A stretch of DNA of 64,000 nt. Source: Methanoregula sp. SKADARSKE-2. Its GTDB lineage: Archaea; Halobacteriota; Methanomicrobia; Methanomicrobiales; Methanospirillaceae. The notes beneath the pieces are model-generated. The model saw only the letters and a list, made by a program, of their open reading frames with translations, ran no database searches and was not told where the DNA came from. The stretch lies in contig CP121470.1 in NCBI GenBank assembly GCA_030919125.1, positions 1,116,001 through 1,180,000 on the forward strand, given 5' to 3'. The position numbers and the translations under genes were made by a program. Below are positions 42,273 through 55,927 of the stretch, piece after piece. The first letter of the stretch is position 1. Each line of letters starts with the position of its first letter.

Positions 42273-43250
42273 ATGACGAGTATGGAAAATCTGGTTGATT
42301 TTGCGTTCGAGAAGCGGTATGAGAGTATCAAACGACTCGGGGATCGGCTTGACGGATTTTCGACATTAATCAATTGGGAGAGGTTTCTGATGGTAGTGGG
42401 AGGTCTGTATCGAAACCAGACCGAAGAGGGCGGTCGACCGAATATTGATATCGTTCTCATGGTTAAGATGCTGGTACTCCAGTCGATGTACAGCCTGTCC
42501 GATCCCGAACTTGAGCGTCAGGCCAATGATCGCATATCATTTATGAAATTCCTCGGGTATCCTAACAAGGTCCCGGATCAGACCACCGTCTGGTATTTCC
42601 GGGAGCGGTTGGCAAAGACCGGAAAGGATAAGGCTATTTGGGATGAGCTCCAGCGACAACTCGATGCACAATGTCTGAAAATCAAAAAAGGCACCATTCA
42701 GGATGCGACTTTCATCACCTCAGAGCCCGGTCATGCTTCAACGAATACACCCCGGGGTGATGCTGCAAAAACTCGAAGAAGCCGGGATGGAACATGGGCG
42801 ATAAAGGGCAAGAAATCTTATTTTGGATACAAACTCCATACCAAAGAGGATTGTGACTTCGGACTGATCCGGGCTCTCGAGGTTACAACTGCCTCAACCC
42901 ACGATTCGCAAATCGACCTGTCGAACGAAGGAGAGGTGATCTACCGTGACCGAGGATATTTCGGTACCAAAACAAAAGGTTTCAACACCACCATGCAACG
43001 GGGTGTTCGTGGGCATCCGATCGGTATCCGCGATGTTCTCAAAAACGCTCGAATCTCTCGAATCCTATCTCCCGGGGAACGCCCATATGCCGTCATCAAG
43101 AATGTGTTCCATTCTGCTCATACCAGAGTCACAACCGTTCTCAGGGTGTATACCAAAATGCTGTTCTCGGCCTTCTGCTTTAACTGGTTTCAACTAGCAA
43201 CCCTCAAAAAACGAGGGGTTCTTGAGCGGATGCTCTCGACAAAAAACTGA
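42273..43250 (+). CDS. IS5-family (ISH1-type) transposase
   Basis: A 325-residue apparently intact DDE transposase. The N-terminal DUF772 region has RPNIDIVLMVKMLVLQSMYS near residue 55 and PDQTTVWYFRERLAKTGKDK near 100. The catalytic core has GTIQDATFITSEPG (first Asp), VIYRDRGYFGTKT (second Asp) and the C-terminal ERPYAVIKNVFHSAHTRVTT (Glu), ending FNWFQLATLKK. I could not find convincing terminal inverted repeats or a target duplication by eye, so element ends are not given. Confidence 0.9.
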   Translation: MTSMENLVDFAFEKRYESIKRLGDRLDGFSTLINWERFLMVVGGLYRNQTEEGGRPNIDIVLMVKMLVLQSMYSLSDPELERQANDRISFMKFLGYPNKVPDQTTVWYFRERLAKTGKDKAIWDELQRQLDAQCLKIKKGTIQDATFITSEPGHASTNTPRGDAAKTRRSRDGTWAIKGKKSYFGYKLHTKEDCDFGLIRALEVTTASTHDSQIDLSNEGEVIYRDRGYFGTKTKGFNTTMQRGVRGHPIGIRDVLKNARISRILSPGERPYAVIKNVFHSAHTRVTTVLRVYTKMLFSAFCFNWFQLATLKKRGVLERMLSTKN

Positions 43251-44433: not shown

Positions 44434-44604
44434 TTCGGAGGATTCACTCTCGTTCGATCTCCATCCCGGGTTTGTCTAACCCTTGGATGGGCGCTACTAA
44501 CTCTTAGATCTTTCGGTCAAAACCAAGGGCGTAAATCCTATATCCTATAAATAATTTACCTGACCCTGTTAACAGGTAAGTTCACGATAGTGAACGAAAT
44601 GATT

Positions 44605-44675
44605 GCCATGATGGCGGAGTGGCTACGCGGCTGACTGCAGATCAGCGGAACCCGGTTCGATTCCGGGTCATGGCT
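44605..44675 (+). tRNA. tRNA-Cys (GCA)
   Basis: Acceptor arms GCCATGA/TCATGGC, T-arm CCCGG-TTCGATT-CCGGG, and anticodon stem GCTGA/TCAGC around CTGCAGA give anticodon GCA. Length 71 nt with discriminator T. A TATAAATA at about 44545 lies upstream. Confidence 0.93.
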
Positions 44676-44744
44676 CTTGCATAACCTGGGGCGAATGAAG
44701 TTTTTTCTTAATTATCGTGACAATTTCATCTACCGTGGAGTTTT

Positions 44745-45740
44745 ATGGAACGGGGACTTACTGCAGAAACAAAAGCAATCCTGATAAGTATCGGGAATGC
44801 AGCTATCGATCCATCCCTTCTTCCCGAGGATCTGAAAACAACGGCGACCGCTGGTCCGGGTGCAGGGGGCCCTTCATTTTTTATCTACTCGGGTGGACAC
44901 CGGGTCCGGCTTTCCTTGAACCCTGATTCGTCGCTTAAAGTCATTCCCTGGAAGGATGGGGTCGCGGTCACAAAAGAGGGAAACATAATCGCATTCGGTA
45001 CTCTCGAACGTCCGCTCTGCCACTGTCCGCAGCAGGCGTATATAACGGTCAGCGAGCGCTGCATTTACAATTGTAAATTTTGCCCCGTCCCGCTCGTTAA
45101 CGGGCATGCGAAGACTATAGACGAGATTATTGGAATGGTTGATGCGGCCCGCACCGCAGGAGAGATTACCGCGATATCGTTGACGAGCGGGGTTGCGGAA
45201 TCCCCTGAAAAGGAGGTTGAATACATGGTGATGGTTGTTGCAGAGCTCTCAAAACGCTACGAACTTCCCATAGGGGTCTCAGTATATCCGACGGCCAGAT
45301 CATCTCTCGATCTCTTTGCAGCCGGAGCCTATGAGGTCAAGTACAACGTAGAAACAATGAATCCGGCAATCTTTGCGACGGTCTGCCCGGGCCTCTCGCT
45401 CGATGGAATCCTCTCTACTCTGGAGGCTGCGGTGACGATTTTTGGAAGGAATCACGTTTCATCGAACTTCATCATAGGACTCGGGGAAACCGATGAATGC
45501 GTGGAACTGGGCATTGAGCGGCTTGCAGAAATGGGAGTGATTACCAACCTCCGCCCGATATCTGCACATCCGCTCAGGAAGGGAGATATCATGGTCAAGC
45601 GCTCATCATCGTACCGGATTCTCCGGCTGACCCGGAAAAACAAGGAAATTCTTGAACGGCATGGGCTCTCGGCCCTCAAGGCAAAGACGATGTGCCTTCC
45701 CTGTACAGGGTGCGACCTTGTTCCACAAAGGGATCTCTGA
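44745..45740 (+). CDS. radical SAM protein of unknown function
   Basis: A 331-residue protein. The first 90 residues lack a known fold assignment (FIYSGGHRVRLSLNPDSSLK). The radical SAM motif CIYNCKFC (Cx3Cx2C) lies near residue 107, followed by ISLTSGVAESPEKEVEYM (GGE-like position) and VKYNVETMNPAIF near 205. The C-terminus ends MCLPCTGCDLVPQRDL, three cysteines that may hold a second cluster. Overall shape resembles biotin-synthase-like methanogen proteins. It is a single gene between tRNA-Cys and an aminotransferase remnant; pathway unknown. Confidence 0.78.
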   Translation: MERGLTAETKAILISIGNAAIDPSLLPEDLKTTATAGPGAGGPSFFIYSGGHRVRLSLNPDSSLKVIPWKDGVAVTKEGNIIAFGTLERPLCHCPQQAYITVSERCIYNCKFCPVPLVNGHAKTIDEIIGMVDAARTAGEITAISLTSGVAESPEKEVEYMVMVVAELSKRYELPIGVSVYPTARSSLDLFAAGAYEVKYNVETMNPAIFATVCPGLSLDGILSTLEAAVTIFGRNHVSSNFIIGLGETDECVELGIERLAEMGVITNLRPISAHPLRKGDIMVKRSSSYRILRLTRKNKEILERHGLSALKAKTMCLPCTGCDLVPQRDL

Positions 45741-47941: not shown

Positions 47942-50081
47942 TCAACCGGGCTCTGCTTTAAAAAAAATCCCTTGTTTTTGTATCCCCAACTTTACCTCGG
48001 GAACATACGTCTTGAGCAGCAGCGAGAGGCTCACCACCGTTACCGAACTCAGTGCCATCGCAAAGGCACCAAACTCAGGACGGAACGTAATCCCGAACGG
48101 GAGATACAGGATACCGGCAGCGACCGGTATCAGGGCCGCATTGTAGGCAAACGCCCAGAAGATATTTCCCCGGATCCGGCCCATGACCTTCTTCGAGAGC
48201 TGGATTGCGGCGACCGAATCGAGAAGGTCGTCCCGGATCAGGACAATATCCCCGCTCTCGATTGCAACATCCGTCCCTCCGCCAATTGCGATCCCTACAT
48301 CCGATTGTGCAAGTGCAGGTGCATCGTTGATCCCGTCGCCCACAAACGCGACAATCTCTCCCTGCTCCTGGAGTCTTTTTACTTCCTCTGCCTTATCCAG
48401 CGGCAGGTCTCGGCAATGACCGTCTCGATCCCTATCTATCGGGCAATGGCTTCCGCGGTGCGCCGGTTGTCACCGGTGATCATGACAATTTTCTTCCCCA
48501 TGGTTTTCAGGGCAGCCACTGCAGCCTTCGACGTCTCCTTAAGGGGATCGGCGATGGCGAGAATTCCCGCCACCTGCCCGCCGGCAGTGATGAGGACTGC
48601 TGTTTTGCCATCCCCTTCAAATCGGACCAGCGCCTCTTCTGCGTTCCCGGGCACCACATCAGGATGCCCAGCTCCGCCCCGCGCTCGACCCCTACCGTGA
48701 CCGCAGTCGGCGTGGCAAGCCCGAGGGCGCACGGGCAGGCTATGACAAGGACGGAGATAAGCGCCGTGAGCGCAAAGCGCAGTCCCACTCCAAGGATGAA
48801 ATACCACACAATGAATGCGAGTGCTGCGATCCCAAGGACCGTGGGAATAAAGTACGTGACCGCGAGGTCGGCGATCCGCTGGACCTGCGGCTTTGACCCC
48901 TGGACCTCCTCGACGAGCTGGATGATCTGGGCAAGGACCGTCTCCCTCCCGACCTCCTTTGCCTTTACGGAGAGGACACCATCCTGGTTGATCGTCCCGG
49001 CCACGACATTGCTCCCGCGCCCCTTCCGGACCGGCACCGGTTCCCCGGTTATCATCGACTCGTCGACGTAACTTGCACCGGCCACGACATCGCCGTCGAC
49101 GGGGATCTTCCCCCCGGGCTTTACTATCACAATATCATCCACGATGACGTCCTCGATCGGGTGCTCTTCTTCGATGCCGTCCCGGACTACGGTCGCTCTC
49201 TTCGGCATCAGCCCGGAGAACTTCGTGATGGCATCTGATGTCCTTCTCTTGGCCCGGGCTTCGAGATATCGCCCGAGCATGAGGAACGCAGCGAGCATGA
49301 TCGCCGTATCGTAGAACATGAACTCGGTGGTCAGGATCATCCCGAACGTTCCGAGGACGCTTGCGACAAACGACATCCCGGTACCCATCGCATACATAAC
49401 GTCCATGTTCAGCGTCCGGTTACTGAGCGCCATGCGGGCGGCCCGGAAGATAGGGGAGGCGACGTAGACAAAAACCGGCGTGGCGATGACGAGCATGATG
49501 TACGCGAGGGTCTGCGTCGTTATCGGAAGGGGCACCCGCATCGCCGCCATCAGGGGGGTACTGACCGCAAAACCCACCATGAACCGGAGGAATTTGTCGT
49601 GGAGATCGCGATCCCGCACCCGTTTTTCAGTCTCCCCACTCACTTCCCCGGCGATCCCGAGGTACTGGTAACCCGCGCCCTCTATCGTTTTTTTCATCTC
49701 ATCGATGGTTGTGAGGGATGGGTTATAGATGACGGAAGCCTTCTCGGTGGCAAGGTTTACGGATGCGGACACAACCCCGCGGAGTTCCTTAAGTGAGGCC
49801 TCGATGGTCTTGATGCACGTCGCGCACATTATGCCACCCACCTTTACCGTCACTTCGTGATTGACAACCTCATACCCCGCGTCGCAAAGAGCCCGTTCGA
49901 GATCGGTAAGTTTGACCTTCGCAGGATCATACTCCACCCAACAGGAATCGGTGCCGAAATTTACCTGCGCACCGGTCACATCCTTGAGCTTTGCCAAGGC
50001 TTCCTCGATATTGAGAGCGCAGGTGGCAGAGCTCATCCCGGAAATTTTCAGCTCGGCTCTCTTCTTCTCCGCGTCCATCAT
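47942..50081 (-). pseudogene. copA: copper-type P1B ATPase (CopA) pseudogene lacking the phosphorylation site
   Basis: From ATG 50081: two HMA domains (first with ATC and its first Cys changed to Ser, second with MCATC), membrane part, TGE loop ([13 protein letters not shown] near residue 355) and [20 protein letters not shown] near 470. Right after GAELGIL the sequence jumps to the late P domain in another frame ([34 protein letters not shown]), so the segment with DKTGT is deleted. A TAG follows EAIAR (CAG expected), then another shift, then [20 protein letters not shown] and the last helices. Non-functional as a pump. Confidence 0.88.
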
Positions 50082-50469: not shown

Positions 50470-50895
50470 CTAATTCTTACCCATCCCGCATCCGTGCGGG
50501 TGCTCGCCCGGCACCCACCGGTCGCCATCCTTCCGGAGCTCCTTCTTCCAGATCGGGACCCCGGCCTTGATCGTCTCGATGATATAACGCGATCCTTCGT
50601 ACGCTTCCTTCCGGTGACCGGCGCCGACGATGATGATCAGGATGTTCTCACCGATCGCAAGCCTGCCGATCCGGTGGATGATGTCAACCGAGAGGAGACC
50701 AAATTTTGCCTTCGCATCTGAGGCTATCTGTTCGAGTTCTCTTAAGGCGACCTCTTCATAGGACTCGAGTTCCATCTCACAGATGTCGTCATCCCGGACG
50801 ATACCATCGAAGAGAACGATTGCCCCCATGCCGCGCTGTTTGGCATCATTGATGAGGTTCCCGATATCCACATCTTCCTTCTGGATGGCGATCAT
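50470..50895 (-). CDS. moaE: molybdopterin synthase catalytic subunit MoaE
   Basis: A 141-residue protein: GAIVLFDGIVRDDD near residue 24, HRIGRLAIGENILIIIVGAG near 74, HRKEAYEGSRYIIETIKAGV and PIWKKELRKDGDRWV near 115, the conserved MoaE active-site lysines. It adds the dithiolene sulfurs to cPMP using MoaD thiocarboxylate. It follows the MoaD-like gene by 18 bp on the same strand. moaC is at 8 kb. Confidence 0.95.
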   Translation of the reverse strand: MIAIQKEDVDIGNLINDAKQRGMGAIVLFDGIVRDDDICEMELESYEEVALRELEQIASDAKAKFGLLSVDIIHRIGRLAIGENILIIIVGAGHRKEAYEGSRYIIETIKAGVPIWKKELRKDGDRWVPGEHPHGCGMGKN

Positions 50896-50913: not shown

Positions 50914-51192
50914 TCAGCCGCCGGCAACCGGGGGGAATACTGCTACTTCATCGCCATCGGTGACGAGAATTTTTTCGGCATCAGCAGTGTCGACGCGTTT
51001 TGTGTTCCGCATCAGGATGACAAACTCGCGGAAAGCACCCTGCTCATCAAAGATGGCATCGTATCCTTCCTTGTTCTCTCCCGCAACATCTTTGACAAGA
51101 CCGGAGAGGGTCATCCCAGGAGCCGGCGTTGCCAGTACATCGGTTCCGAGCAGTTCCCGGAACCGTGCAAAAAAACGGATCTTTACGCTCAT
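50914..51192 (-). CDS. moaD: MoaD/SAMP-type ubiquitin-like sulfur carrier
   Basis: A 92-residue beta-grasp protein starting MSVKIRFFARFRELLGTDVL and ending DEVAVFPPVAGG. The C-terminal GlyGly is the site of adenylation and thiocarboxylation. MoaD family length is 80-95. I chose ATG 51192, removing a charged N-terminal extension. It lies between moeB and moaE, which indicates molybdopterin synthesis; a second role as protein modifier (SAMP) is known for haloarchaeal relatives. Confidence 0.9.
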   Translation of the reverse strand: MSVKIRFFARFRELLGTDVLATPAPGMTLSGLVKDVAGENKEGYDAIFDEQGAFREFVILMRNTKRVDTADAEKILVTDGDEVAVFPPVAGG

Positions 51193-51256
51193 CGTTCTTT
51201 CCTTCTCTGTTTCTGCTTCTTTATCAGAATATTCGAAATCGTTCATCCAACCTGTT

Positions 51257-52012
51257 TTAGTTCAACCGCAGTTCTCTTCCCCTGGGTTTTCCGGTACCGC
51301 AGGCTGCGCAGCAGGAATTGGCTTCAACACAGATCTCCTCTGACCGGGACTCCAGCCCGTCCCAGATGAAGAGCCGGCCGGTAAGAAGGTTTCCCCGTCC
51401 AAGGAGATATTTCAGAACCTCGGTTGCCTGGATCATGCCGATGCACCCGGGCGTGACCCCGACCACCGGGAAGACCTCTTTTGGCGGCGCTTTTGGAAAG
51501 ATACAGGCAAGACAAGGGCTCTTCCCGGGGAGGATGGTCGTTGCCTGGCCATAGAACCCGCGGATAGCGCCGTGAAAAAGAGGAATTTTTTTCCGGAGGG
51601 CAACGTCGTTCAGGAGATACCGTGTGGTGAAATTGTCCATCGCATCGACAATGCCATCCGCGGTCCCGATCATCTGGTCCGCGTTCGTCTCGTCAATTTT
51701 CTCATCTCTTGCGGTGACGACGATATCCGGGTTGATCTCTCGGAGTTTCTCCTCAGCGGATGCCGTCTTCTTCTTCCCGACATCCCGATCAAAATGAAGG
51801 ATCTGCCGGTTGAGGTTGGACTGGTCGACCACGTCCATGTCGACGATGGTTATGTGCCCAACCCCGGCGACCCCAAGATAGATCGAGACCGGGGAACCAA
51901 GGCCCCCGGCACCCGCGATGAAGATATGGGCCTTTTTGAGTTTTTCCTGCCCTTCATCGCCAAACAGCATCATCTGGCGCTTGTACCGCTCCCGTTCCCG
52001 TTCCGTTATCAT
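51257..52012 (-). CDS. moeB: MoeB/ThiF/E1-like adenylyltransferase
   Basis: A 251-residue E1-like protein: RYKRQMMLFGDEGQEKLKKA at residue 8, ATP site IAGAGGLGSPVSIYLGVAGV near 31, DQSNLNRQILH near 64, DAMDNFTTRYLLND near 127, the zinc cysteines CLACIFP near 175 and CCAACG near 238. It activates the GlyGly end of the MoaD-like carriers. It follows nifU by 39 bp on the same strand. Confidence 0.94.
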   Translation of the reverse strand: MITERERERYKRQMMLFGDEGQEKLKKAHIFIAGAGGLGSPVSIYLGVAGVGHITIVDMDVVDQSNLNRQILHFDRDVGKKKTASAEEKLREINPDIVVTARDEKIDETNADQMIGTADGIVDAMDNFTTRYLLNDVALRKKIPLFHGAIRGFYGQATTILPGKSPCLACIFPKAPPKEVFPVVGVTPGCIGMIQATEVLKYLLGRGNLLTGRLFIWDGLESRSEEICVEANSCCAACGTGKPRGRELRLN

Positions 52013-52051: not shown

Positions 52052-52486
52052 TCAGTGCTGGCACTCCACGTCATTGTCGTGATCGTGGATGTGCAGGTTT
52101 TTCTCCTCCCATTCGGGAAGGCTGTGTCGTCTCCGGTAGTCATTGATCGCCTTGTGGATTCCCCCCTCGGCAAGGACCGAGCAGTGCATCTTTATGGGGG
52201 GCAGGCCTTCGAGCGCCTCCGCAACCGCCTTGTTCGAGACCTCCCAGGCCTCTTCGAGCGTTTTTCCCCGGACAAGCTCGGTAGCCATGCTGCTCGATGC
52301 GATCGCTGCCCCGCACCCGAAAGTCTTGAACTTTGCATCTACGACGATGTTGTTCTTGATCTTCAGGGTGATCTTCATAATATCGCCGCAGGAGGGGTTT
52401 CCGACTTCACCGATACCATCGGCGTCCTCTATCTCCCCGACATTCCTGGGGTTCTTGAAATGATCCATCACTTTGTCGCTATACAT
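52052..52486 (-). CDS. nifU: IscU/NifU-type Fe-S scaffold protein
   Basis: A 144-residue scaffold: YSDKVMDHFKNPRNVGEIED at the start, GNPSCGDIMKITLKIKNN with the first Cys near 33, FKTFGCGAAIASSSMATELV with the second near 59, and KMHCSVLAEGGIHKAINDY with the third near 101. These three cysteines assemble the cluster. The C-terminal HIHDHDND is His/Asp-rich. Its start overlaps the nifS 3' end by 8 bp, so the desulfurase and scaffold are co-translated. Confidence 0.95.
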   Translation of the reverse strand: MYSDKVMDHFKNPRNVGEIEDADGIGEVGNPSCGDIMKITLKIKNNIVVDAKFKTFGCGAAIASSSMATELVRGKTLEEAWEVSNKAVAEALEGLPPIKMHCSVLAEGGIHKAINDYRRRHSLPEWEEKNLHIHDHDNDVECQH

Positions 52487-53675
52487 CGCACCTCCGATCC
52501 TTCTCGGTTTTCTGATGCAGCGGAGACATCTCCCTCAACTTTGATACAACCTTCGGGAGCACGTCCAGGATCACATCCACATCACCGGGCTTGTTCGCGT
52601 CGCCGAGCGTGAGCCGGAGCGAGCCGTGGGAGATCTCAACCGGCAGGCCGGTCGCGAGGAGGACGTGGGAGGGTTCGAGCGATCCGGAGGTACAGGCGCT
52701 TCCCGTTGAGGCACAGATCCCCACGTCATCGAGCCAGATGAGTATCGACTCTCCTTCGATAAACTCGAAACTGATATTGATATTTCCCGGGAGGCGCTTC
52801 TCCGGGTGGCCGTTGATCCGTGCATAAGGGATCTTCTCAAGAATTCCGGTAACGAGACGATCCCGCATCGCGGCGACCCGGGCGCTGTGCCCGGGGATGT
52901 CAGCGGTCGCGAGTTCGATCGCTCTCCCAAGCCCGACGATACCCGGAATATTCTCGGTCCCCGCCCTGCGCCTTTTCTCCTGCCCGCCACCGTGGAGGAG
53001 GTTCTCGATACGAACACCTTTTTTGATGTAGAGAGCCCCGATGCCTTTGGGGCCATAGAATTTGTGGGCAGAGAGGGAGAGGAGATCGATGTTCTGGGCT
53101 TTCACGTCAATGGGGACGCTCCCGATCGCCTGGACCGCATCGGTGTGGAAATAGACATTGTGCTTCCGGGCGATGGCACCGAGTTCGGCTATAGGTTCGA
53201 TGGTCCCAATCTCGTTATTCGCGTACATTATGGTGACAAGGATCGTCCTGTCCGTGATCGCCTTCTCGAGATCCTCCGGGCTGACCATCCCGTTCCGGTC
53301 AACCGGGAGATAGGTAACCTCGAACCCCTCCTTTTCGAGGAACTGGCAGGAGTGGAGAACCGCGTGGTGCTCGATCTTCGAGGTTATGATATGGTTCCCC
53401 CGCTTGCGGTTGGCCAAGGCAACCCCTTTGATCGCCCAGTTGTCAGATTCCGTACCGCCACCGGTGAAGTAGATCTCGTCCTGCTCGGCACCGAGTGCCG
53501 TTGCGACTTGGATCCGTGATCGCTCGATCGCCTCCTTCGTCACCCTGGCGATGCTGTAGACCGATGAAGGGTTACCGAAATGCTCGGTGAAATACGGGAG
53601 CATTGCGGATACTACGTCGGGACGGGTGAACGTGGTCGCTGCGTGATCCATATAGATGATGCGTCTCTCTGCCAT
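52479..53675 (-). CDS. nifS: cysteine desulfurase NifS/IscS
   Basis: A 398-residue PLP enzyme: YMDHAATTFTRPDVVSAMLP at residue 8, HHAVLHSCQFLE near 105, THSDAVQA-like FHTDAVQAIGS near 178, the PLP lysine LSLSAHKFYGPKGIGALY near 203 and the active-site cysteine loop STGSACTSGSLEPSHVLL near 330. It provides persulfide sulfur for NifU and probably for thiolation and molybdopterin genes nearby. It is the first gene of the minus-strand run nifS-nifU-moeB-moaD-moaE. Confidence 0.96.
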   Translation of the reverse strand: MAERRIIYMDHAATTFTRPDVVSAMLPYFTEHFGNPSSVYSIARVTKEAIERSRIQVATALGAEQDEIYFTGGGTESDNWAIKGVALANRKRGNHIITSKIEHHAVLHSCQFLEKEGFEVTYLPVDRNGMVSPEDLEKAITDRTILVTIMYANNEIGTIEPIAELGAIARKHNVYFHTDAVQAIGSVPIDVKAQNIDLLSLSAHKFYGPKGIGALYIKKGVRIENLLHGGGQEKRRRAGTENIPGIVGLGRAIELATADIPGHSARVAAMRDRLVTGILEKIPYARINGHPEKRLPGNINISFEFIEGESILIWLDDVGICASTGSACTSGSLEPSHVLLATGLPVEISHGSLRLTLGDANKPGDVDVILDVLPKVVSKLREMSPLHQKTEKDRRCDV

Positions 53676-53848
53676 TCTCCACCTTCTACCTGAATATGTG
53701 CACGGATCTCGGGATTATTCTTTCCCCTTTGGTGTTCCCGGAACATCAATGAAAGTGTCCCCCGGGAAAAACGATACGCGATCCAGATTCATAAGGAAGA
53801 TCCCCCGGGGGCGAATGGGAAGGTTTTTCTTGTTCTGCACCCCATTCA

Positions 53849-53879
53849 CAATTGTTAATTGCAATAAGTTATATTGCAA
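53849..53879. promoter_or_regulatory. candidate operator: nested inverted repeats
   Basis: Two overlapping dyads lie between the divergent nifS and HTH genes. CAATT-GTT-AATTG occupies 53849-53861, and TTGCAAT, 7-bp spacer, ATTGCAA occupies 53859-53879. Both are perfect. The second includes a TATA-like GTTATATT (about 53868-53875), roughly 35 bp before the HTH start. A factor bound here would block initiation on the HTH-larE-fdhD side and could reach the nifS promoter. Confidence 0.6.
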
Positions 53880-53906
53880 CTGGGATAACTTAAAGGTTGT
53901 GATACG

Positions 53907-54239
53907 ATGGAAGCACCCTGCCAGAAAATAGTTTGGGATGTCCTGCCCGCGATCCGCGCGGCAATTGCCGCGGAACTCGTAAAGGCCGGTGTTTCGCAGG
54001 TGGATGCCTCAAGGATGCTCGAGATCGCTCCCTCTGCCGTCTCGCAATACCTCTCCGGGAAGAGGGGATACCGGATCGAGTTCGAGAACGATGTGAAGGC
54101 ATCGATAGAGAAATTCGCCTGCGATCTCCGGGAAGGGCGTGATGTAAACCTCGTGAAACGCACCTGCGATATCTGCCTCCAGCTTCGCGAAGGCGACGAG
54201 AACCAGTGCAGGGCTGAATCCCGGCGGCGTGGATCCTAA
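53907..54239 (+). CDS. HTH regulator with C-terminal cysteine cluster (probable Fe-S sensor)
   Basis: A 110-residue protein. Residues 20-60 hold a helix-turn-helix (VSQVDASRMLEIAPSAVSQY, then LSGKRGY), as in phage-repressor/XRE-like folds. The C-terminal part has cysteines at 72, 87, 90 and 101 (ACD, TCDIC, NQC), plus C5: a spacing that could hold an Fe-S cluster or zinc. It is divergent from nifSU and followed by larE. Regulation of sulfur and Fe-S genes is an inference from location. I do not know a characterised member. Confidence 0.72.
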   Translation: MEAPCQKIVWDVLPAIRAAIAAELVKAGVSQVDASRMLEIAPSAVSQYLSGKRGYRIEFENDVKASIEKFACDLREGRDVNLVKRTCDICLQLREGDENQCRAESRRRGS

Positions 54240-54270: not shown

Positions 54271-54315
54271 TTGTTCTACCATGAATACCGAGATGTTTTA
54301 CCATGAATACCGAGA
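54271..54315 (+). repeat. 22-bp tandem duplication at the larE start
   Basis: TACCATGAATACCGAGA occurs at 54277-54293 and again at 54299-54315, with one mismatch in the rest of a 22-bp unit. The first copy places an ATG (54281) out of frame with larE; it would encode a 17-codon peptide overlapping the true start at 54303. Confidence 0.8.
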
Positions 54316-55127
54316 AGAAAATTCAGGCCGTTAAAGATAACATCGCCACCCGGGGATCGATGATCGTCGCGTTCTCTGGGGGGGTCGACAGCGCCCTCCT
54401 CGCCCTCCTCGCCCGGGAGACCCTGGGCGACAGGAGCCGGTGCGTCCTGCTTGACAGCCAGGTTGTGCCGAGATCCGAAGTCAGCGATGCGAGGGTGCTC
54501 GCAGAGAGATACAATCTCGATCTGGAGATCCTCCCGGTCTCAGTGATGGAGGACGAGCGGTTTATCAGGAACCCGGCCGAACGCTGCTACTTTTGCAGAA
54601 AGAATTCAGCGGTCGTCCTCAAAGGAAAGAAGGACGAACTTGGCTTTGCCTGTATCGCAGATGGTCTCAACACCTCCGACATGGGAGAGCACCGCCCGGG
54701 GATCGTCGCAAGCACGGAAGAAGGCATCATCCACCCATTCATCGAAGCGGGGATCACAAAAGACGATATCCGGGCGATCGCCCGGGAGCGAGGCTATTCG
54801 TTCTGGAACAAGCCCTCTGCTGCCTGTCTCTCCTCGCGCATCCCGTACGGGGAAGCGATAACATCCGGAAAACTCCGGATGATTGAGGCGGCCGAGGCCT
54901 TCCTTGCCGGGAAAGGCTTCTCCCAGTTCCGGGTCCGGATGCACGGGGATATCGCACGGATCGATGTCACGGGCGACGAGATCCCAAAAATAATGAAGAT
55001 GCGCATGGAACTAGTAAAGGAATTAAAACTGCTTGGTTTCCGGTATGGCGTGCTCGATCTCGAAGGATACCGGAGCGGGAGTATGGATGAGGTGCTTGAC
55101 CGGGAAGAACCGCCCGGCCATAACTGA
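54303..55127 (+). CDS. larE: LarE-type ATP-dependent sulfur transferase
   Basis: A 274-residue PP-loop enzyme: AFSGGVDSALLALLARETLG near residue 23, RCYFCRKNSAVVLK near 98, IADGLNTSDMGEHRPG near 122 and PSAACLSSRIPYGE near 172. LarE puts sulfur on the nickel-pincer nucleotide precursor. The CxxC plus the Cys of AACLSSR gives three cysteines, the arrangement of LarE forms that use a [4Fe-4S] cluster as sulfur donor and not a sacrificial Cys. No larA, larB or larC is visible in the window. Confidence 0.92.
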   Translation: MNTEKKIQAVKDNIATRGSMIVAFSGGVDSALLALLARETLGDRSRCVLLDSQVVPRSEVSDARVLAERYNLDLEILPVSVMEDERFIRNPAERCYFCRKNSAVVLKGKKDELGFACIADGLNTSDMGEHRPGIVASTEEGIIHPFIEAGITKDDIRAIARERGYSFWNKPSAACLSSRIPYGEAITSGKLRMIEAAEAFLAGKGFSQFRVRMHGDIARIDVTGDEIPKIMKMRMELVKELKLLGFRYGVLDLEGYRSGSMDEVLDREEPPGHN

Positions 55128-55138
55128 GGTATCAGGTT

Positions 55139-55927
55139 ATGGCGGATATGTTCAAACTCCTGCTCTGCATCAGGATTGACGGTGAAAAATTTGAGAAGGC
55201 CACTCACGAGGTCATCGAGGAGGTACCCTTCGCTCTCTTCATCAACGGGAGGCACGCCATGACCGCGATGCTCAGCCCGGTTGCGCTGGAAGACTTCGTC
55301 ACCGGGTACCTCTTCACCGAGCAGATCGTAAAAGATGTCGATGAGATCGAGTCGATCCGGATCGAGAAGAACCGGCTGAGCGTGATAACGAAGAACCTCT
55401 TCAAAGTTCTCGGCCCCAAAAAGACGATCCTCTCCGGCTGCGGCGGGAGTGCATCGTATATCGATGCTGAGAAACTCCCGAAGATCAGATCCGACTTCAC
55501 TATCAACACCGGTGCAATCGGGAGTCTCCTGAAGTCCGTCCTGAACTCGGAACTGCACCGCACAACAGGCGGGATCCATATCGTCGCGCTCGCGGACAAA
55601 GAGAAGATAATTGCTGTTTCCGAGGATATCGGGAGGCACAACGCTCTCGACCGGATCATCGGCAGCGGCATCCGGAGCGGGGTCGATCTTTCGAAGACTT
55701 TTGTCATCGTCTCCGGGCGGATCTCTTCCGAGATGGTCAGGAAATGCCTGATCGCAAACATCCCGGTCATCGTCTCCCGGGGCGCGACCACGACCCTTGC
55801 GGTCGAGATCGCTGAGAAGGCCGGGCTCACGGTGGTCGGGTTTGTCCGTGCGGGACGGATGAACGTGTACTCCCACCCATACCGGATAGAAGGAGCAGAA
55901 AACGGTCTGAACAGTCTCGAGCCCTGA
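55139..55927 (+). CDS. fdhD: FdhD sulfur-transfer protein
   Basis: A 262-residue protein: EEVPFALFINGRHAMTAMLS near residue 27, FVTGYLFTEQIV near 50, ILSGCGGSASY near 97, TGGIHIVALAD near 142, EDIGRHNALDRIIGSGIRSG near 161 and SGRISSEMVRKC near 190. FdhD passes sulfur from a desulfurase (here nearby nifS) to the molybdenum/tungsten cofactor of formate dehydrogenase. It has one Cys in the loop where many bacterial forms have CxxC. It follows larE by 11 bp. Confidence 0.95.
   Translation: MADMFKLLLCIRIDGEKFEKATHEVIEEVPFALFINGRHAMTAMLSPVALEDFVTGYLFTEQIVKDVDEIESIRIEKNRLSVITKNLFKVLGPKKTILSGCGGSASYIDAEKLPKIRSDFTINTGAIGSLLKSVLNSELHRTTGGIHIVALADKEKIIAVSEDIGRHNALDRIIGSGIRSGVDLSKTFVIVSGRISSEMVRKCLIANIPVIVSRGATTTLAVEIAEKAGLTVVGFVRAGRMNVYSHPYRIEGAENGLNSLEP

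Follow-up and report, generated by a model that had tools for sequence, protein, structure and literature searches.

Genomic Context of the nifS/HTH Intergenic Region

The locus raises the question of what is controlled by a small helix-turn-helix (HTH) protein encoded back to back with a cysteine desulfurase, and through which DNA site. The window (the whole stretch of DNA analysed, 64,000 nucleotides) carries nifS (52479-53675, minus strand) and a 110-residue HTH open reading frame (53907-54239, plus strand) in divergent orientation, separated by a gap of 231 bp. The close named relatives of the HTH protein were mostly from Methanoregula, and the window is methanogen DNA. The order on the nifS side is nifS, nifU, thiF-like, moaD and moaE, and on the other side come the HTH gene, larE and fdhD:

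50470..50895, minus strand: moaE, molybdopterin synthase large subunit (PF02391, above cut-off)
50914..51246, minus strand: MoaD/SAMP-like sulfur carrier (TIGR01687, above cut-off)
51257..52012, minus strand: ThiF/MoeB-like E1 adenylyltransferase (PF00899, above cut-off)
52052..52486, minus strand: nifU/iscU-type Fe-S scaffold (TIGR03419, above cut-off)
52479..53675, minus strand: nifS, cysteine desulfurase (NCBIfam TIGR03402, 614 bits against a cut-off of 531)
53907..54239, plus strand: putative HTH regulator, 110 residues (C5, C87, C90, C101; A41 opens the second HTH helix)
54303..55127, plus strand: LarE-like sacrificial sulfur transferase (TIGR00268, above cut-off)
55139..55927, plus strand: fdhD, formate dehydrogenase sulfurtransferase (TIGR00129, above cut-off)

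In most Methanoregula loci that were fetched, the HTH gene diverges from nifS-nifU. In six loci (L046, L048, L049, L050, L053 and L055), the HTH gene diverged instead from moaD or thiF, with no close nifS within the fetched 10 kb. As moaD, moaE and fdhD recur beside the HTH gene, a Moco-only regulator was considered; it was dropped once sites at tRNA-Cys, cysK and SepCysS were found.

The initial annotation of this locus proposed an autoregulated repressor of Fe-S assembly. That logic is half right, and both the operator it named and its Fe-S-only framing are to be replaced. It is likely that the HTH protein is an autoregulated repressor which binds another palindrome, TTCACAATTGTGAA, and lowers the expression of cysteine and sulfur genes when the sulfur or Fe-S supply suffices.

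A Conserved Palindrome Upstream of the HTH Gene

The check suggested for the earlier proposal, conservation of its dyad and of its cysteines, was carried out. The dyad and C72 were not conserved, whereas a different palindrome and the set C5/C87/C90/C101 were. The elements of the gap are as follows:

53844..53859, unstranded: O1, predicted conserved operator ATTCACAATTGTTAAT, consensus ATTCACAATTGTGAAT (sequence conservation and shuffles)
53859..53879, unstranded: first dyad, TTGCAATA-n5-TATTGCAA, present in the window and not conserved
53865..53892, unstranded: second dyad, TAAGTTAT-n12-ATAACTTA, interleaved with the first
53869..53874, plus strand: TATA-like TTATAT of the HTH promoter, between O1 and O2 (by eye; promoter function inferred)
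53873..53886, unstranded: O2, decayed second operator ATTGCAACTGGGAT, 28 bp from O1, at a position equivalent to the copies in relatives
53897..53903, plus strand: O3, half-site TTGTGAT just before the HTH start codon, conserved in relatives

Two perfect dyads with 8-bp arms are indeed present between nifS and the HTH gene. They had been described as nested and in fact interleave; the first spans TTATAT (53869-53874), in agreement with the claim that one dyad covers the TATA-like element. The dyads exceed chance, though not overwhelmingly: among 1000 dinucleotide shuffles of the whole gap, one such dyad arose in 75 and two in 4, and among 1000 shuffles restricted to 53840-53906, one arose in 42 and two in none. 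With up to three mismatches allowed, the motif TTGCAAT-n7-ATTGCAA, put forward as the operator, was found at a single one of the 54 homologous loci, namely the window, and at two of the 80 named-genome loci. Within its own genome, it had 96 matches at up to three mismatches against 44 for a reversed control, and the window site was the only exact copy. With 1/54 loci, this dyad was ruled out as the operator.

The conserved palindrome, TTCACAATTGTGAA, is present in the window as ATTCACAATTGTTAAT at 53844-53859, beginning 5 bases upstream of the stretch singled out in the initial annotation, where it had been missed. When scored with two 14-bp consensus forms, TTCACAATTGTGAA or TTAACAATTGTTAA occurred at up to two mismatches upstream of the HTH gene in 49/54 homologous loci. 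The same forms and threshold gave 66/80 named-genome loci across the Methanomicrobiales and Methanosarcinales, including Methanosarcina and Methanolobus, when 200 nt were searched. The two sets share genomes and together comprise 102 distinct loci; the 54-locus set leaves out L001 (a duplicate of L007), L051 (truncated) and L056 (a paralogue). Shuffling of the 54 upstream stretches never produced a match with zero or one mismatch, and produced a two-mismatch match 6 times in 2700. In the window gap, the best match had one mismatch and was equalled by 1 of 2000 shuffles. The end of TTCACAATTGTGAA lies mostly 45-48 nt before the HTH start codon in the 54 loci.

Further copies accompany O1. A second copy with up to three mismatches, 26-28 bp from O1, was present in 14/54 loci, the window being excluded from this count as its copy is decayed; the equivalents of O2 read GTCACAATTGTGAT in L019, L020 and L026, and GTGACAACTGGGAT in L029, L030, L033 and L034. 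In 44/54 loci, TTGTG stood no more than 18 nt from the start codon, in 33 of the 54 as TTGTGAT, and O3 would overlap the transcription start. The position of TTATAT matches that of TATTATGT in many relatives. As autoregulation would require, a conserved operator stands in the HTH gene's own promoter, beside the TATA-like and start region as placed by eye.

The HTH Protein and Its Cysteines

The cysteines at positions 72, 87, 90 and 101 listed in the initial annotation are all present; C72 was found in no other row of a 37-row alignment. C5, which had not been listed, was present in 36 of the 37 rows, and the resulting motif (C5, CxxC at 87/90 and a cysteine near 101) in 99/101 homologues. An AlphaFold2 model (pLDDT 73) showed an HTH with flanking helices, and had helices at 31-38 and 42-50. 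The model was weak at C5 and C101, with residues 1-7 and 97-110 below a pLDDT of 50. The protein matched PF01381 (XRE/HTH_3) over residues 21-53 with 21.1 bits (E 3.3e-4), below the gathering cut-off of 23, and precomputed PF01381 assignments were present on 9/120 homologues among the matches listed; a paralogue in the same genome scored 27. Among the matches listed, fold searches gave generic HTH folds. The label COG2522 was not counted as evidence.

A paralogue of the regulator with a similar cysteine pattern was noted at L056:4590-5140 (G000:C1:419589-420139). It overlaps an 81-aa winged-HTH-like open reading frame that resembles, by eye, the operator-linked winged-HTH described below. No operator with up to one mismatch was found at this paralogue among the matches listed in a looser-pattern genome scan.

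C5, C87, C90 and C101 would carry the sensor, which is most likely an Fe-S cluster, or else zinc or a thiol/persulfide switch; the four-cysteine pattern, as read from sequence, fits all three alike. A CxxC together with two further cysteines fits a zinc site too. This would suit a reading in which zinc bound by the cysteines is structural and a different signal is sensed, for instance cysteine or a sulfur metabolite; set against it, a protein of about 110 residues would leave scant room for a separate ligand domain, and we regard it as possible, if somewhat unlikely.

Predicted Operators at tRNA-Cys and SepCysS

A second predicted operator of the window lies ahead of a tRNA gene:

44581..44594, unstranded: predicted operator TTCACGATAGTGAA, 10 nt before tRNA-Cys (two mismatches to the consensus; weaker than O1)
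44605..44676, plus strand: tRNA-Cys (GCA), identified by ARAGORN
44745..45740, plus strand: radical-SAM-like gene after tRNA-Cys (radical-SAM models with E down to 8e-23, below cut-offs)

The score of this operator was reached by 3/5000 shuffles of the 61-nt upstream stretch. L110 shows an exact operator, tRNA-Cys and a similar radical-SAM-like gene in the same order as in the window. Another site in the window, at 45063 (ATTTACAATTGTAAAT), lies within the radical-SAM-like coding sequence and was taken as a coding coincidence. An inverted repeat, TTACCTG/CAGGTAA (44556-44579), was observed between the TATA-like element of tRNA-Cys and the operator; many relatives carry a further operator copy at this position.

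A scan of 35 operator-region loci gave 25 tRNAs, every one of them tRNA-Cys. Across all loci (122 distinct tRNAs), an operator with up to three mismatches was present in the 60 nt upstream of 56/78 tRNA-Cys genes versus 0/44 other tRNAs; many of the 78 come from loci fetched by the operator, and the 44 come mostly from four genomes, for which 30 of 183 tRNA matches had loci. Among loci found by tRNA sequence, 19/29 tRNA-Cys genes had an operator with up to two mismatches. This set consists of the first 30 matches, less L182, which had no usable upstream DNA, and is biased to similar tRNAs because the query was itself an operator-linked copy. For 22 of the 78 tRNA-Cys genes, no operator with up to three mismatches was found upstream, so only some copies can be controlled.

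SepCysS occurs as two paralogues. An operator lay within 350 nt of 26/26 genes of one paralogue with upstream DNA and of 0/3 of the other; L159, with no DNA before SepCysS, was excluded. The operator-linked SepCysS has about 60 residues ahead of the part matched by the SepCysS model, and these probably correspond to the SepCysE-like extension described in the text available of PMC5424206. An operator specifically upstream of tRNA-Cys and SepCysS is what would be expected of a regulator of RNA-dependent cysteine biosynthesis. Levels of SepCysS in M. voltae were reported to be similar on both sulfur sources compared (PMC8516115, as far as its accessible text extends).

Promoter Arrangement

The placement of the operators bears on whether they repress or activate. 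An operator near the gene was present in 40 tRNA-Cys promoters, of which 32 showed a TATA-like octamer in the range searched, the octamers having been picked after the promoters were read. Upstream of the gene, TATA-like centres fell at a distance of 51-59 nt and operator centres at 13-23 nt. A second operator, 26-28 bp farther upstream and against the TATA-like box, was present in 24/40. By eye, the same order of TATA-like box then operator was seen in 4/4 Methanosarcinaceae nifS and 3/3 cysK upstream stretches. Operators placed downstream of that box, with one near the 5' end of the tRNA gene, would be expected to repress.

The arrangement at nifS in Methanoregula would allow activation, because the shared O1 lies upstream of the nifS TATA-like element by about 27 bp (26-29 bp in 17 of the 18 loci with such an element, out of 29 examined). 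The HTH protein might then be an activator, or act in both ways, repressing its own gene and activating nifS from the upstream site. The operators downstream of the TATA-like box at tRNA-Cys, Methanosarcina nifS and cysK speak against an activator, and we consider this reading unlikely.

Extent of the Putative Regulon

Exact copies of TCACAATTGTGA were found at 89 sites in 39 of 60 genomes, the window's own being among the 60 searched, versus one site for the reversed control. The genes around the exact sites, among the matches listed, were cysteine synthase, PdxS, SepCysS, SufS-like, ThiI-like, NifS, NadA and radical-SAM-like genes. Cysteine synthase, PdxS and SepCysS were above the NCBIfam cut-offs, and SufS-like, ThiI-like and radical-SAM-like below them; the identity of NadA was taken via the window's own nadA, itself above cut-off, which had no operator at up to two mismatches. 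The 170 unique exact sites in the fetched loci were distributed over overlapping target classes, listed after the surroundings of the sites had been looked at: HTH 66, NifS 50, tRNA-Cys 34, SepCysS 26, CysK 11, radical-SAM-like 9, ThiF 9, PdxS 8, NadA 7, ThiI-like 4, and none of the listed genes 18. The HTH and NifS counts are raised because many loci were fetched by HTH homology, and a SufS count of 42 was left unused because SufS and NifS, being homologous, share members between their classes. Some sites stand before genes without an obvious link to sulfur (DUF63, a lipoprotein-like small protein and an ACT domain). In Methanosarcina, nifS has an operator of its own, and L268 and L283 carry HTH, nifS, cysK and tRNA-Cys operators all in one locus.

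The operator signal in the window's own genome is thin. This genome has no exact TCACAATTGTGA site and lacks the operator-linked SepCysS. The 16-mer with up to three mismatches gave 7 matches versus 1 for the control, and a looser pattern 10 versus 5, several of the looser matches falling inside coding sequence. A third site, TTAACAATTGTGAA at 1065676, lies ahead of a gene for a winged-HTH protein of 70 aa, with another tRNA-Cys behind it.

The winged-HTH gene at this third site (L115:4177-4830, G000:C1:1065676 on) has counterparts in L106 and L132. In these three loci, each with tRNA-Cys, a winged-HTH of 67-70 residues (HTH_24, scanned in L132) is encoded about 105-118 bp behind TTAACAATTGTGAA, and it might act as a further regulator of this group.

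The targets bear on the scope of control. A regulator of Fe-S assembly only, sensing its own cluster and controlling just nifS-nifU with all other sites minor, would suit the divergent nifS-nifU of most fetched Methanoregula loci, the separate nifS operator in Methanosarcina, the four conserved cysteines of the HTH protein and the activity of M. acetivorans IscU2 as an Fe-S scaffold in vitro, reported in the accessible text of PMC7585200. We find it very unlikely: the tRNA-Cys and SepCysS sites are equally close to the consensus, and the HTH gene is kept beside moaD or thiF in the six loci with no close nifS in the fetched 10 kb. In addition, deletion of iscSU2 in M. acetivorans left the Fe-S content similar and lowered cysteine desulfurase activity, and persulfide was lower with cysteine as the sulfur source (PMC7585200, the part available). 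According to its authors, IscSU1 and 3 may substitute for IscSU2, which is not essential (PMC7585200, same part). A non-essential IscSU2 serving cysteine-derived sulfur would be in line with a cysteine regulon.

The proposal of an autoregulated Fe-S assembly repressor thus stood as to the operator in its own promoter, the conserved four-cysteine motif and the neighbouring cysteine desulfurase, and failed in its scope. The term is too narrow because the operator also marks tRNA-Cys, SepCysS, cysK, pdxS, nadA and a thiI-like gene, and because in the six loci the HTH gene diverges from moaD or thiF without a close nifS.

For the repressor of cysteine and sulfur genes that we favour, the following course may be envisaged. 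In the window, the HTH protein would bind the TTCACAATTGTGAA variants that lie ahead of tRNA-Cys and of its own gene, and in relatives it would also bind at nifS, SepCysS, cysK, pdxS, nadA and the thiI-like gene. A sufficient sulfur or Fe-S supply would keep the cysteine and sulfur genes repressed, and on loss of the signal the regulator would let go of its operators. More tRNA-Cys and SepCysS would then allow cysteine to be made on tRNA, CysK would supply extra free cysteine and PdxS the PLP cofactor, and NifS would pass sulfur to NifU, MoaD, LarE and FdhD.

Probable Assignment of the Palindrome to the HTH Protein

The exact site was present in 37/46 genomes with an HTH orthologue versus 2/14 without one, at an orthologue cut-off of E < 1e-25 that was set after seeing the table, and with the genomes taken as independent of kinship. 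Of the two orthologue-less genomes with a site, one has it in a coding frame (L130) and the other is 77% complete. The third base pair of the operator changed with residue 41 of the protein: with A41 it was C/G in 61/74 loci and A/T in 1, and with T41 it was A/T in 10/11 and A/A in 1. An operator with up to two mismatches was missing in 14/88 A41 loci and 3/14 T41 loci (Methanothrix type). T41 occurred in two separate tree clades, one nested among A41 orthologues; two T41 events are a rough count because the bootstrap is unsettled and L057 forms a long branch.

These observations suggest that the HTH protein is the binder of the palindrome. The predicted operator, its conservation, its preference for tRNA-Cys, its placement relative to the TATA-like box and gene there, and its covariation with residue 41 can all be read from the DNA. 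It is highly improbable that the palindrome is bound by another factor with the HTH protein merely one target, for instance by the 67-70-residue winged-HTH, whose own gene lies 105-118 bp behind TTAACAATTGTGAA in the window's genome (L115), L106 and L132, given that the site stands at the HTH gene in 49/54 loci, tracks the presence of that gene and covaries with residue 41.

In the second T41 clade (L057-L062), the regulators diverge from a paralogue of fdhD that shares about 30% identity with the copy in the window. A TTAACAATTGTTAA site, TTAACAATTGTAAT in L057, was observed between the two genes.

Comparison with Known Systems

IscR, of the Rrf2 family, is the bacterial repressor of Fe-S biogenesis and has a three-cysteine [2Fe-2S] motif. 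Like IscR, the HTH protein is small, predicted to be autoregulated, has conserved cysteines and is encoded beside a cysteine desulfurase and a scaffold. Unlike IscR, it had no Rrf2 match among Pfam and NCBIfam profiles, its cysteines follow the layout C5...C87-x2-C90...C101 and not the three-cysteine motif, and its putative targets include tRNA-Cys and cysteine biosynthesis. The earlier suggestion of an IscR-like logic in a different family thus agrees with the lack of an IscR-family sequence match.

SurR and other archaeal thiol/redox regulators are small HTH proteins with a CxxC and a link to sulfur metabolism, features that the present protein shares. They would differ from it in family and in DNA motif. 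The M. acetivorans orthologue of the HTH protein presumably adjoins MA2718.

The M. acetivorans iscSU2 cluster, tied to the use of cysteine sulfur, has methionine and NAD biosynthesis genes as neighbours (PMC7585200, the part available), and L268 similarly has a nadA relative behind nifS-nifU. In contrast to the present finding, neither a regulator nor an operator is described in that part of PMC7585200. The neighbourhoods of clade VII SepCysS contain tRNA-Cys and "a few sulfur metabolism genes" (Mukai et al. 2017, PMC5424206, text available). A linkage of the same kind between SepCysS, tRNA-Cys and sulfur genes is seen here, and, unlike in that account, a shared operator ties in nifS, cysK, pdxS, nadA and the HTH gene. 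The word "regulator" does not occur in the main text of PMC5424206, and no operator is mentioned in the text available. In the texts reached by a literature search that covered few subscription journals, parts of PMC8762117 (a review on cysteine coding systems) included, no methanogen regulator acting on SepCysS, tRNA-Cys or nifS was found.

There is about an even chance that two methanogen orders have a dedicated cysteine-economy repressor, XRE-like and with a C5/C87/C90/C101 sensor, that controls particular tRNA-Cys copies and a second SepCysS. If so, a tRNA gene would be regulated as a biosynthetic enzyme gene would be, and a transcription factor singling out one tRNA species would show tRNA as a regulated biosynthetic cofactor. 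Cysteine made on tRNA would be matched to the withdrawal of sulfur by NifS for Fe-S clusters, molybdopterin and thiolation, and the cell's draw on cysteine sulfur would be governed by a single small protein. With the operator, the covarying residue and the Methanosarcina locus at hand, the idea is open to direct tests in strains with genetics.

Other Features of the Window

An IS5-family transposase open reading frame was noted at 42273-43250, and a second copy of 325 aa, almost identical to it, lies at another place in the genome (L056:7605-8582); compared by eye over the first 90 residues, the copies had one difference. A copper-ATPase-like open reading frame of 524 aa (48507-50081) is perhaps broken. 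It matches P-type ATPase models in its first part only (to about residue 249 of 542, TIGR01511).
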